DNA from: Deltaproteobacteria bacterium
GTDB lineage: Bacteria; Desulfobacterota; Binatia; UBA9968
Assembly (NCBI GenBank): GCA_016193465.1
Contig: JACPSE010000185.1
Location: 1-64,000 of the forward strand
DNA: 64,000 nt
Reading direction: 5' to 3'
Numbering within the stretch: the stretch's first letter is position 1; every line of letters starts with the position of its first letter. Position numbers and translations under genes: made by a program. The notes below the pieces were generated by a model. The model saw nothing but the letters and a program-made list of their open reading frames with translations. It was not told where the DNA came from and did no database searches. Shown here piece by piece: positions 7,884 through 15,515 of this stretch.

Positions 7884-8390
7884 ATGAAAAAAGCGTTGGG
7901 CCTAATCGTTTGTTTCTTCGCGCTGTTGGCAACTTTGCGGGCGGATGCCGGTGAGACCGTAAGCTGTAAAGTTAGGGCGCTGTTCCCGAGTCAGGGGACT
8001 GTCAGCGAAGCGGTCATACAGGAGATCCGCCAGACTCGTTCGATGTTGTCTCTGGCCCTTTATGGTTTTGATAACCGGGAGTTGGCGGAAGAGCTGGCGA
8101 AACTGGCCAGGCGCAGGATAAATGTAAGGGTTAAGATCGACTCGGCGAAGAGCGAGGAGAAGCGGGAGAGCAAGATCGTGGAATATCTCCGGGCTGCGGG
8201 AGTCCGCGTGCAGGCCGTAGCCCCGGAGGGGAGAAATCACAACAAGTTTGCCGTGATCGACCAGGACAAAGTGATCACAGGGTCCTATAACTGGACTTTG
8301 AAGGCTGAGAAAAACTGGGAGAACCTGCTTATCCTTGATTGCCCGGAACTGGCCAAGCTGTACGTTAGGGAATGGGAGGCGATTCAGTAA
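7884..8390 (+). CDS. Phospholipase D-like (Nuc-type) endonuclease/phosphodiesterase, secreted
   Basis: Signal peptide followed by HNKFAVIDQDKVITGSYNWT (HKD motif) and IVEYLRAAGVRV. Confidence 0.85.
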   Translation: MKKALGLIVCFFALLATLRADAGETVSCKVRALFPSQGTVSEAVIQEIRQTRSMLSLALYGFDNRELAEELAKLARRRINVRVKIDSAKSEEKRESKIVEYLRAAGVRVQAVAPEGRNHNKFAVIDQDKVITGSYNWTLKAEKNWENLLILDCPELAKLYVREWEAIQ

Positions 8391-9490: not shown

Positions 9491-9748
9491 ATGGCCGATG
9501 ACATGACGCACGAGAATAATGGCACTAAGTTCATGCTCGGCTTTATTGTACGCAGGTGCGCGAGGGAAATCGGTCATCCGCCCACGGCGGAGGAATTTGC
9601 CGCTTGGGCCAATGGCCGGGAGGAAAACGGGCAACGCTACAGCCTTTTTGGCCGGCCGATCTCACCCTCCGCCGCCAGAATCATTCTCCGCCATCCAGGA
9701 CGGCTAGTGACCGCGCGTTTGGAGTCAATCATGAAAAGGGCGCGATGA
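9491..9748 (+). CDS. Conserved-looking hypothetical protein
   Basis: Open frame MADDMTHENNGTKFMLGFIVRRCAREIGHPPTAEEFAAWANG... downstream of the cupin gene. Confidence 0.4.
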   Translation: MADDMTHENNGTKFMLGFIVRRCAREIGHPPTAEEFAAWANGREENGQRYSLFGRPISPSAARIILRHPGRLVTARLESIMKRAR

Positions 9749-10892: not shown

Positions 10893-11102
10893 ATGAGAGA
10901 GAAAGAGATCCAGTGGCTTAGGGACCATCAGGACCAGGTAGAGAGGCTGCAAGGAAAGTGGATTGCAGTGGAGGGTGACATTTTGATTGCTGAAGGAGAT
11001 ACCTTTAATGCCGTTTACGAAACTGCAAAAGAAAAGGGTGTAGAGATCCCATTTCTCTTCCTTGTTCCACCAAAGGAGGATGTGGTTTTTGTGGGATTCT
11101 GA
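10893..11102 (+). CDS. DUF5678-like small protein
   Basis: EIQWLRDHQDQVERLQGKWIAVEGDILIAEGDTFNAVYETAKEKGVEIPFLFLVP matches the DUF5678-type pattern; the stop overlaps the next start (TGATG). Confidence 0.65.
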   Translation: MREKEIQWLRDHQDQVERLQGKWIAVEGDILIAEGDTFNAVYETAKEKGVEIPFLFLVPPKEDVVFVGF

Positions 11103-11505
11103 TGCCCACCGTTTTCTATCAACACACTCTGCAGCTTCTCCCTCATTCCCGTCCTCTAATCCCAGTCAGGCTAATCGGTAGGCGGGGATTTGCACCGATA
11201 GATACTTTAGCTCTCTTAGATAGCGGTGCCGACCGATGTGTTTTTCCTGAAGAGTTTGCTGTTAGGTTGGGATTAGATCTCTCAGCCGGGGCTTCCATCC
11301 CGATAAAAGGGGCCACTGGGGGCCAGTTTCCTGCGCGGATAGTTCCTGTGACAATCGAGGTCGTGGGATAGCTTTTGATTGCCATGCGGCATTTACGCCG
11401 GGACCGGTTCCTTACAGCTTCATAGGTCGAGAAGGGGTTTTTGAAAAATCCCAATGGGGCTTCCGAGTCGGTCATGGCATCGTCTATTTTGATCCGCAAC
11501 CTTAG
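11102..11505 (+). pseudogene. Retropepsin-like aspartyl protease, frameshifted near its C-terminus
   Basis: TLALLDSGADRCVFPEEFAVRLGL active-site motif; after the stop at 11371 the -1 frame continues as GIAFDCHAAFTPGPVPYSFIGREGVFEKSQWGFRVGHGIVYFDPQP up to 11505. Confidence 0.7.
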
Positions 11506-11737
11506 ACGCTTGTTTACAAAGGTAAAGATGCGACCCCTTCTGCGACATCACATTTCTTTCAAGTTCACGGTACAAGGCATCAATTTCACGTTGGATCTCT
11601 AGGGTCTTCGCCAATGCTGTTACGACGCGGCAGTAGTGCTTGATGTCGTCAAGATTGAGGATGCGCTTTTTGCGGTCCTTGAGCCATTTGTCCAGCACCC
11701 GATAGCCGCCGATCTGGTACTCTTGGACCTCCCACCC
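11420..11737 (-). pseudogene. C-terminal stub of a Type IIG/ISP-like restriction-modification enzyme
   Basis: GWEVQEYQIGGYRVLDKWLKDRKKRILNLDDIKHYCRVVTALAKTLEIQREIDALY is the typical C-terminus of these enzymes; no methyltransferase motifs precede it. Confidence 0.75.
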
Positions 11738-11850
11738 CTAAAAATAATTTGTCTTGGCGGTGTAACGCCATTCGTGACCCGCAATGGAAGGCCGCGCTCC
11801 GGCGAGGCTTTTCATGTGTCGCGGTCGACGCAATTGTTAGACGTTTCCTC

Positions 11851-12768
11851 TTACTTCATTGCCAATGTAAGCTGGTGGTCCCGAGATATATCGACTTCCT
11901 CGGACAACCTGCCGTTCTTGAATGGCATTCTGAACTTCTTCGCTCGAAGGCCGTTGAGGGTTTCATCAATGCGTTCGGTCAACGAACCTGGCAGGCTGAT
12001 TCTGTGAACGCCAAGTCGCTTCTCCGCAATGGCGGTGTATTCCTCGGAAATATCGCAGACGATGGAGAACCGCTCGTTGTTGTAAGCGGCGACGGCGCTG
12101 GTTCCCGCGCCGCTCATCAAGTCCACGACAAGGTCGCCTCTGGCGGTTCCCATCAGGACAATTCTCTCGATAACAGCGACGGGCTTTTGAGACGGGTGTC
12201 CCGTCTGCTCATTCCTTCCAACGAACCCGCAGAGCAAGGGCTCTTCGATCACGCTTGGTGGTCCGGGAATGAAGCGGAGCTTTCCTTGTTTGAGCTTCTG
12301 AAGTTGCACTTCGTTCAGGAAATTTTCCACGTGCATCTTCGCGTCCGGCTTTGACAAGTGAAGACATGTCATTTGTGCCGATCGCCATCCGCGGATCATC
12401 GACGGGGAATTCTTGTAGAACCACGTAACCCAGCATCGCAAAGCGAGCGGCGCTGGGATCTTGTCGACGAAGTGGGCAATGATCTCGGGGAATCCCCAGA
12501 AGAAGAGGTGTTCCGAGAAGGGGACCAAGGACTTCAGTACGTTCACGATGTACTGGACATAATCGTCCCTCTCGCCGCCGACGCCCTTGTTATACCACGG
12601 ATCAAAGATGGTGGTCTGAGCCTTGATTCCCAGCAAGTCCAAGAGTCGCGCCGAGACGTGAACGTCCATTGGCGGCAGAATCACGACGCCGTCGCCGGCT
12701 AGCGTGGTCTCGATCTTATCTCGGGTTTCCTCAAGCAACCTCCGCACGCGATCACCGTTGTTCTTCAT
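11851..12768 (-). CDS. DNA methyltransferase, N4/N6 beta-class
   Basis: Motif IV-like TTIFDPWYNKGVGG precedes SAM motif VVDLMSGAGTSAVAAYNNERFSIVCDI; GHPSQKPVAVIERIV is characteristic. Confidence 0.9.
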   Translation of the reverse strand: MKNNGDRVRRLLEETRDKIETTLAGDGVVILPPMDVHVSARLLDLLGIKAQTTIFDPWYNKGVGGERDDYVQYIVNVLKSLVPFSEHLFFWGFPEIIAHFVDKIPAPLALRCWVTWFYKNSPSMIRGWRSAQMTCLHLSKPDAKMHVENFLNEVQLQKLKQGKLRFIPGPPSVIEEPLLCGFVGRNEQTGHPSQKPVAVIERIVLMGTARGDLVVDLMSGAGTSAVAAYNNERFSIVCDISEEYTAIAEKRLGVHRISLPGSLTERIDETLNGLRAKKFRMPFKNGRLSEEVDISRDHQLTLAMK

Positions 12769-13466
12769 TTCTTGCCCTTCCTGATACTCCCATCCTTCAG
12801 CATGGTATACCCGAAGTAGGACAGAAGGAAGAGAAATACGTCCCTTTTATCCGCTTCCGGAGCAAACTGGACGATGGCATATGTGTTGAGCTTGCCGGTG
12901 GTTGTGTCCCAGTAATTTTTCTTCGTGACTTGGTGTCGACCACACAGGGCCTGCCATTGCTCCGGAGTCTCGGGGTCGGCATCTGGATTGAGCGAGTGGG
13001 GGTTCTTGTGATCCGGAGTCAGCTTGACTCGTCCTCCTCCCACCGGGTCGCTCTCTCCGTCCTCCAGTCCGCAGACCATTCCGGCTTCATTCCACTCGCA
13101 GGCGTAGCCTGCTCTCTCGAGAACGGCTGTCCAAGTGGCGTCCGTTGGGCGGACGCGTTTGCCGGCACCGCGCCGTTTCCGCTTGTCCGGCATCAAGTAT
13201 TCCTGAACCTTCAAGTCTCCCCGATTCCGCCAAGACAGAATCGTGTACCCATCATCTGTGCGGAGTTCGGATAACCGTTGATGCCAATTCTCGGGTTGCC
13301 GACCGGAGTCAGGATCGGTTGCGGCTTCGATGATTTGCTCTCGCGTGAGGACTTTGCCCAGGTTGTCGAGGAAGAGCGCCTCGATGCGCTTCTTGACGCT
13401 CTTCTGGCGGTACGGTCCCTTGGGTTTGCCGTAGGGCTTTCGTGAGGGGCTCATCTTGTCTGCCAT
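12765..13466 (-). CDS. HNH-family restriction endonuclease
   Basis: YACEW...CGLEDGE...VKLTPDHKNPHSLNPDADPETPEQWQALCGRHQVTKKN HNH core; N-terminal part looks like a DNA-binding helix region; overlaps the MTase start by 4 nt. Confidence 0.75.
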   Translation of the reverse strand: MADKMSPSRKPYGKPKGPYRQKSVKKRIEALFLDNLGKVLTREQIIEAATDPDSGRQPENWHQRLSELRTDDGYTILSWRNRGDLKVQEYLMPDKRKRRGAGKRVRPTDATWTAVLERAGYACEWNEAGMVCGLEDGESDPVGGGRVKLTPDHKNPHSLNPDADPETPEQWQALCGRHQVTKKNYWDTTTGKLNTYAIVQFAPEADKRDVFLFLLSYFGYTMLKDGSIRKGKK

Positions 13467-14821
13467 TGAGGTTTACTTTCCTCCAACTCTTCCCAGTCTA
13501 AGGTGTTCGTCAAGTAAAGTTGAAATCTCTCGTTTTCCTGCAACCGGTGCCCGAATTCTTCTAGTAGATACCCGACCTTGAGATGCCCCACCGCGTAGGG
13601 TGCCATCATCAATTCAAAGGCATAGAAGTTTTTCAAGATATGGTCTGGGATCAAACTTGCTTTGGCTCCGGTTCCGTATTTCTCTGAGAATTCCGTGACT
13701 GCCTGACGTGCAGCCTCCGCAGAGAAGGTGCAGGTGCCCGCTGCGGGGTCTAGCACCCGGACGGTGGTCGAGGCAAAACCATCGGACCGGCCAAAGACAT
13801 CCTTTAGAATCCGATGCAGAGACCGGACGATGTAGCCCACGACAGGCTCAGGCGTGTAGTAAACGCCTCTGCGTTCTCTCTCCGCAGGATCATATTCGGC
13901 CAGAAAAGGCTCGTAGAAATGGACTATGGGATCTCGTCCTTCTCTGTCCTTGAGAATGGCCTCGACATTCGCTACTGCTAGGACTTCGGCAATATCGTCA
14001 ATGATCCACTCCATCTGGGCAGGCGGATCTCCTAGAGATATGTAATGAAATACGTCTCGTAGTATGCCGATGCTTCGAGGAATAAGTTCAAAAGCCGGTT
14101 TGCGGTTGAACCCGTTCTTGGCCTTCGTGCGAGCGGCAAAAAGACCATAGGTGATGGTCTGAGCATAAAGGTCAGCGAAAGTATCCTTGGTTAGAGTTCC
14201 AATAAGGAATTTCTGAAAGGCCTCGTAAAACCCTAGTAAGTCACCTTTCTTTTCTGCCTCTTCTTGTTCCATCTCACCAAGGATTTGCACCTTTAGAAAC
14301 CGGGTTCTCTTAGCCAGCTCTACAGCCAGAGACTTGGCGGAGTAGGTCTTTGGGAGGGAAAAGGCGAAGAATTTTTCCAGAAGTTCAATGAACTCCTTTT
14401 CTTTCTCAACCTGAGGAATCGACTTGAGCTTGTAGAGAGTAAATGGCCGGGCAATCTGGGCCGAGTCAATAAGCTTCCCGTCTCGGTATAGCCTGAACTG
14501 GAAGAAATTCGTAAGGATTAGATTGGGGAACGTATGAAGGTAGCGCTTAAGCTGATCGGAGGTCTCTATGACTTCCAGGTTCTCCTGAGTCGGCGGCTTC
14601 GCTTCAATGTAACCAACGATATGCTGTTTTCCGTCCCACACCCGGAAGTCCGGGTTGCCGGCTTCGGTCTTTTTGGGTAGGACGGTGACGTGGGCCTTGG
14701 CGTGGCCTGATGAGTCGGCAAAGGCTTCGAGAAGAACTTTGAGGGCAGGATAGTAGCTCGGCTCGGTAGCGTCCGCTTGCTTGGCTGTCTTAAATATCCC
14801 TTTTAGATAGTCGTCCAGCAT
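13451..14821 (-). pseudogene. Type IIG/ISP-like restriction-modification enzyme, N-terminal part only
   Basis: Nuclease-like PDFRVWDGKQHIVGYIEAKPP and SAM motif I RVLDPAAGTCTFSAEA; ends at EELEESKPQWQTR before any NPPY motif. Confidence 0.8.
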
Positions 14822-14828
14822 CTAAGCT

Positions 14829-15278
14829 TCACAATCTCTCTTTGCCGGGAAGGACGATCTCAAGTGTCTTGTTTGAGACCAGCGAAAAATCGCTTTCATT
14901 GAACGTGAGTAAGGCCGTGATTTTTGCCTTGAGCCCGCAGGCTGCAATGACTGCGTCGTAAGTGTGCCCACCGGCGATGCCGCTAGCTGTTACCTGTTGA
15001 AGGAGGTGGCGGTATGATTTCCCATCCAGAGCGACTACTTTGGTTGTCTTTATAAAGTTGGCCTCTAACAGGGTCAGCGCATCTGCGGGAGCAAGACGAT
15101 GCGGCGGGGGTAGACGTGTAAGGACCACGTAGGCTTCGATTAGCGCTGGGGCCGCCACGGCCATTTTTTCACCTCGGTCTAACCTGCGCTTGATTTCTTC
15201 CACGGCGTGGCCGTGGTGCTCATGCCAGGAGCACACTGCCGCGACCATACAACTTGTGTCTGGTAGGAAACCGGCCAC
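14829..15278 (-). CDS. PIN-domain toxin (VapC-like)
   Basis: FLPDTSCMVAAV, YDAVIAACGL, LLTFNESDF motifs; preceded by an AbrB-like gene. Confidence 0.85.
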   Translation of the reverse strand: MAGFLPDTSCMVAAVCSWHEHHGHAVEEIKRRLDRGEKMAVAAPALIEAYVVLTRLPPPHRLAPADALTLLEANFIKTTKVVALDGKSYRHLLQQVTASGIAGGHTYDAVIAACGLKAKITALLTFNESDFSLVSNKTLEIVLPGKERL

Positions 15279-15284
15279 GACCGC

Positions 15285-15515
15285 TTAATTGTGAGGAGAC
15301 GGGTTCCGCCTCAAGGCCTTGCGCGTGCGCTCAACCGTTTCAGTCGTGAGAGACTCTATGTCCTTTTGCGGCACCGCTACAAGCAAACGTCCTCTGCGTA
15401 CGAGCTTGACGGACAGGGGCGCGGGCGTGATCTCAATGCAGCCCTCTTTCCAGCGCACGTCGAGAGGCGTTCCCGGCTTCAGGCCGGCTTCCCGGCGGAT
15501 TTCCTTGGGGATCAC
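15285..15515 (-). CDS. AbrB/VapB-like antitoxin
   Basis: IPKEIRREAGLKPGTPLDVRWKEGCIEI; the N-terminal TKTTIDTAGRLV segment extends upstream of the GTG at 15515 without an ATG. Confidence 0.8.
   Translation of the reverse strand: MIPKEIRREAGLKPGTPLDVRWKEGCIEITPAPLSVKLVRRGRLLVAVPQKDIESLTTETVERTRKALRRNPSPHN

Follow-up and report, generated by a model that had tools for sequence, protein, structure and literature searches.

A Type II restriction-modification gene cassette within a truncated Type ISP/IIG restriction gene of a Binatia bacterium

How did a complete restriction-modification (R-M) pair come to lie inside another restriction gene, in the place where that gene's core should be? The question is posed by a window of 64,000 nucleotides (the whole stretch of DNA analysed), which is part of contig C121 in the 238-contig metagenome genome of a Deltaproteobacteria bacterium (genome G000). 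The order on the minus strand is an AbrB-like gene, a PIN toxin gene, an N-terminal fragment of a Type ISP/IIG gene, an HNH-like endonuclease gene, a methyltransferase gene, an attC site and a C-terminal stub of the ISP gene, with ATGA overlaps chaining the N-terminal fragment to the two genes that follow it. The first-pass annotation, made from the letters alone, had proposed that one R-M system sits within another and replaces its catalytic and target-recognition core. All of the parts that it named are present on the minus strand by open reading frame and profile evidence, and both ends of the ISP enzyme are indeed there with the middle replaced by the pair. Our analysis suggests that this is probably a Type II R-M cassette that was inserted, outside any integron, into the resident ISP/IIG gene by an integrase, with loss of the core of that gene. 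The features of the locus are as follows.

13477..14821, minus strand: N-terminal fragment of a Type ISP/IIG restriction-methyltransferase, comprising the putative nuclease part and methyltransferase motif I and ending before NPPY
13477..13501, minus strand: left junction, where the ISP gene passes into the cassette, about 25 bp alike in both parents
12765..13454, minus strand: HNH-like Type II restriction endonuclease, 229 aa, its start overlapping the stop of the N-terminal fragment (ATGA)
11851..12768, minus strand: beta-class DNA methyltransferase, 305 aa, with an ATGA overlap at the endonuclease stop
11842-11760, minus strand: cassette attC, with R'' GTCTAAC at 11842-11836 and R' G^TTACAC at 11766-11760
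11543..11765, minus strand: C-terminal end of that ISP enzyme, left as a stub with an in-frame TAG

The interrupted Type ISP/IIG gene

The N-terminal fragment matches columns 1-443 of 1096 in the PADLOC IIG model PDLC03610 (2.5e-97), and the stub matches columns 1019-1074 of that model (8.7e-13) plus the end of Pfam Type_ISP_C. Since the two match the start and the end of one model, they come from one family and the middle is missing. An intact relative in the same family of bacteria (genome G010, L054:3285-6371), whose 1028-aa protein has NPPY and a full Type_ISP_C (317 bits), gives the extent of the loss: the N-terminal fragment is 83% identical to its residues 1-451 and the stub 68% identical to residues 951-1026, with the in-frame TAG placed by codon alignment at ...YTAKTNYF*GW. 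About 500 codons are gone, including the NPPY motif (motif IV) and the recognition/specificity domain, and of Type_ISP_C only the last residues are left. A putative N-terminal nuclease domain is suggested by coverage of PDLC03610 from column 1 and by a PD...E-x-K-like stretch (NPDFRV...YIEAK) that was recognized by eye in the sequence. As read from its losses, the ISP gene can no longer serve as a methyltransferase or as an enzyme with sequence specificity.

The fragments had first been drawn at 13451..14821 and 11420..11737, and both were assigned to this enzyme class. The assignments hold and the boundaries move. The open frame of the N-terminal fragment (ORF 14821-13451) continues into the insert to 13451, so that homology stops at about residue 451 and the closing PQWQTR of the 456-aa ORF comes from the insert; ISP homology in the stub starts at about 11764, not 11737. 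It had also been considered that 456 aa might be the natural length of the protein, or that the stub might align to a different family. The former is ruled out by the closest homologue of 1028 aa and others of about 1030-1190, and the latter by the match of the stub to the same PDLC03610 model as the N-terminal part.

The G010 ISP gene lies just downstream of a substrate-binding-protein gene. The window has a homologue of that gene (77% DNA identity) some 3.6 kb upstream of its ISP fragment, and because of this common neighbour the two ISP genes are probably orthologues. When the missing core was sought across the whole of genome G000, only its first 70 residues were found, in a second ISP copy on contig C139. 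This copy (L003:5152-7020, plus strand; an open frame of 622 aa) has likewise lost its core, separately: it retains NPPY, after which KNPKWLQD is fused straight to RKKRILNLDD, apparently by a deletion between imperfect TGGCTCMAGGAC repeats, as the sequence would have it. A close ISP relative (G013:C82:3376-6484, L055) is broken into several frames in its first third and is possibly frameshifted. In the surroundings of the window gene, the AbrB-like antitoxin and PIN toxin pair (14829-15515, minus strand) lies directly 5' of the ISP fragment, for which it is possibly the operon leader, and an ORF adjoining the stub (11102-11371, plus strand) carries a retropepsin-like DSGAD motif; a similar protease-like ORF is found downstream of the C139 ISP copy as well (L003:7668-7988).

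The inserted pair and its integron cassette features

The inserted endonuclease matches PDLC03503 (REase_II, 1.5e-88), and its residues C119/C128, D148-H149, C171/H174 and N180 are conserved across 23 homologues. A Pfam search with the endonuclease gave no HNH match, a PDB sequence search with it returned chance matches only, and a fold search with a model of middling quality (pLDDT 71) gave no significant PDB match, the Cap5 HNH nucleases appearing at E 0.6 and above. The methyltransferase, with DPWY first and DLMSGAGTS (motif I) last in its motif order, matches Pfam N6_N4_Mtase (2.9e-16), and its motifs are invariant or nearly so in 16 homologues. The earlier description of an overlapping pair of endonuclease and beta-class methyltransferase stands, except for one detail: the HNH-like gene most likely starts at the ATG at 13454 instead of 13466, a placement preferred because L028, the 93% identical relative, does not have the upstream ATG. 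The two genes are paired in 24 of the 26 public loci, the contigs of L038 and L049 ending just after the endonuclease. The conserved residues of the pair are intact in the window copy, both genes are under purifying selection (dN/dS 0.14-0.20 versus L028), and the pair is complete and, on its sequence, very likely functional. It is present in genome G000 as one copy only; a genome search for a second copy elsewhere found none.

The origin of the pair is best seen in its closest locus, L028, from a Nitrospirae MAG (nzgw276), where the insert is 93.1% DNA-identical over window positions 13483-11763 and the flanks are unrelated on both sides. There, the pair is flanked by attC sites (7914-7974 on one side, 9625-9705 on the other), and the next ORF is followed by a third (11121-11183). 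An R'' complementary to the cassette's own 5' end is a signature of integron cassettes, and L028 shows it twice: GTCCAAC (R'') and GTTGGAC (5' end) are exact complements in the R-M cassette, as are GCCTAAC and GTTAGGC in the next one. The strict R''/R' pattern is weak alone in L028, with three matches versus an estimated 1.6 or so expected, and the attC calls there are thus based on complementarity, folding, spacing and the presence of stop codons within R''. The window attC, which is homologous to that of L028, is 83 nt long and begins 8 nt past the methyltransferase stop; its bottom strand forms a single long hairpin with the R and L boxes paired (-17.9 versus -12.7 for the top strand, z -2.0, the MFE z-scores of several attC sites being modest, at -0.2 to -4.3), and of the 33 attC-like candidates in the 64 kb, no other folds with so low an energy or has boxes so complete. 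By these sequence features, the insert is an integron gene cassette, and a cassette with an attC explains both the mobility of the pair as a unit and the position of the right breakpoint. Three further loci (L030, L031 and L053) start with a similar TTRGACG...GAAGAAAG stretch. Group II intron pieces are present in L031 (4964-5572, minus strand) directly downstream of the methyltransferase gene, about where an attC is expected; some group II introns target attC sites, and the position of this one is as expected of such introns.

The two junctions differ in how sharply they can be placed. On the right, L028-like sequence extends to ...GGCGTTA and ISP sequence is recognizable from the TT of the attC R' G^TT, its similarity resuming with the TAC codon immediately past the G^T, such that the ISP stub starts at the crossover base (G^TT) of the cassette attC. 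On the left, the zone alike in both parents holds a G^TT at 13487 and TTAGAC at 13501, and the break was scored best at 13484-13477, inside GTTGGAGGAAAG. The left border would then be within a few bases of G^TT with the best-scoring break at least 3 bases inside, and a break inside the cassette means that its first bases may be lost. In another reading of the sequence, the left border would instead be the TTAGAC at 13501, which complements the cassette R'' (GTCTAAC) exactly; the same stretch also fits ISP coding sequence. No integrase or attI adjoins the insertion site, and the same composite or junction was not found among the 26 public loci, 395 genomes of the phylum, plasmids and viral contigs.

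How the cassette may have arrived

Genome G000 carries an intact integron integrase (C137:2470-3414, an open frame scoring 468 bits against a cut-off of 265) as well as attC cassettes on contig C3, found by pattern, and probably on C16. In the pattern search the reversed control matched more often than the real pattern; the pattern alone thus proves nothing, and folding and position after an ORF are needed in addition. The strict pattern gave no matches on the G000 contigs with integrase genes, several of which end at or near the integrase gene. With an integrase and attC cassettes elsewhere, the genome appears by its sequence to have, or to have recently had, the means to move such a cassette. 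Integron integrase genes of G000 lie on contigs C137, C162, C113, C174 and C170; besides the intact one, one has a stop codon, several are fragments and some lie at the ends of contigs, probably because the assembly broke there in arrays. The attC sites on C3 (L086:6236-7894) flank a 473-aa ORF matching the candidate defence models PDC-M55C and HEC-05, and in the genome that holds L028, three almost identical fragments from the C-terminal part of an integron integrase recur at regular intervals of about 1.83 kb (G058:C48:9638-13476).

In the mechanism that we favor as the probable one, the compact Type II R-M pair would travel as an integron cassette carrying its own attC, and an integron integrase, possibly the host's own, would recombine this attC with an attG-like G^TT within the ISP gene. 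The ISP core (about 1.5 kb) would be lost in the same or a later event, either through a second integrase exchange, of the attC with another G^TT, or through a microhomology deletion at the left end. The identity of the cassette, the attC at the right border and the loss of the ISP core can be read directly from the DNA, and it is the integrase-mediated joining that we infer from them. Against insertion by an integrase stand the left junction, which is not cleanly on G^TT, the loss of 1.5 kb of the target, which the insertion of a cassette would not by itself cause, the absence of an integrase or attI beside the site, and the finding of this junction in no second genome among those surveyed. 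The main competing route is one in which illegitimate (microhomology) recombination, with no integrase at work, brought the pair into the ISP gene; the pair would still be a cassette by origin, and the attC border just the point where the fragment stopped. The left junction scores best within a shared GGAGGAAA-like stretch, and this route gains weight from the C139 ISP copy, where short imperfect repeats bound the missing core and no cassette played a part, an indication that such deletions happen in G000. The right junction, however, coincides with the very base at which a well-formed attC crosses over, which would be rare by chance, and we regard entry by microhomology as rather unlikely, if a serious competitor.

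Two further explanations have much less in their favor. An assembly artefact, in which contigs of different organisms or gene copies were joined, might be suspected in a 238-contig, short-contig MAG with two ISP copies in one genome, but it needs two false joins in one gene, in the right order and orientation and with no long shared sequence at either. Moreover, the ISP core is on no other contig beyond the first 70 residues on C139, which speaks against a mis-join, and the pair is single-copy; we therefore consider an artefact very improbable. The remaining proposal is that the locus is a composite system, with the ISP N-terminal fragment kept as a working nuclease-domain protein acting with the HNH/methyltransferase pair. 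Its frame is intact, the ATGA overlap couples it to the HNH gene, and non-synonymous divergence is equal (0.105-0.107) for all pairs among the window fragment, the C139 copy and G010, with no extra decay of the fragment, though synonymous sites are saturated, such that this divergence fits recent insertion or continued use alike and dN/dS gives no timing. Recent insertion alone may account for this, the gene lacks motif IV and the recognition domain, and the composite is in no relative in the set surveyed above; of all the explanations this is the one to which we give least credence.

Relation to known systems and biological meaning

Neither element of the explanation that we prefer, integrase-mediated insertion of an R-M cassette, is without precedent. 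Integrases have been observed in experiments to act off target at GNT/GTTRRRY sites (PMC10127599), and cassette insertion into chromosomes via attG is described (Loot et al. 2024, as cited in PMC12901181). The window resembles such secondary-site insertions in having an attC-bearing cassette in a chromosomal gene, with no surrounding attI or array and an attC-side crossover at G^TT, but differs in that 1.5 kb of the target was lost, the left border has no clean G^TT and the target is itself a defence gene. R-M genes in integrons are already known (PMC4176335, PMC3031569, PMC12444791), as are defence genes as integron cassettes (Darracq 2025, Kieffer 2025 and Getz 2025, as cited in PMC12444791); here too a complete defence unit forms a cassette, and L028 has the R-M pair within an array, whereas the window copy lies outside an array and inside another R-M gene. 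According to PMC3031569 and the works cited there, R-M units have also been inserted in chromosomes with long target duplications or by insertion sequences (IS). The window similarly has a complete R-M unit at a new chromosomal site, yet shows no target duplication or IS, and its unit has an attC and replaces target DNA. The N-terminal fragment and stub are the two ends of an enzyme like the Type ISP/single-chain IIG enzymes (LlaGI, LlaBIII; PADLOC PDLC03610), though the window gene, which has no NPPY and no specificity domain, is not a functional member. No described twin, that is, a defence cassette replacing the core of another defence gene, was found in the literature searched, which leaves out most subscription journals. 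As R-M genes in integrons and cassette insertion outside integrons are both known, the window is a new natural instance and no new kind of system.

Following the insertion, the cassette genes probably owe their expression to the ISP frame, through read-through and the translational coupling that the two ATGA overlaps would allow, and the pair would now supply the restriction function at the ISP locus. A broader and, in our estimation, improbable extension is that off-target integron integrases exchange defence systems in place, with the cassette appropriating the start of transcription and translation from the gene that it destroys, and the remaining nuclease fragment kept under selection in a composite operon. 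Our findings highlight a natural, sequence-level case of an integron cassette settled outside an array in a chromosomal gene, with one defence system disabling another. Laboratory work shows that off-target insertion happens, and natural cases with two identifiable parents, here the in-array cassette of L028 and the intact ISP of G010, may help in asking how often defence repertoires are shaped in this way, and whether promoterless cassettes gain expression by insertion.
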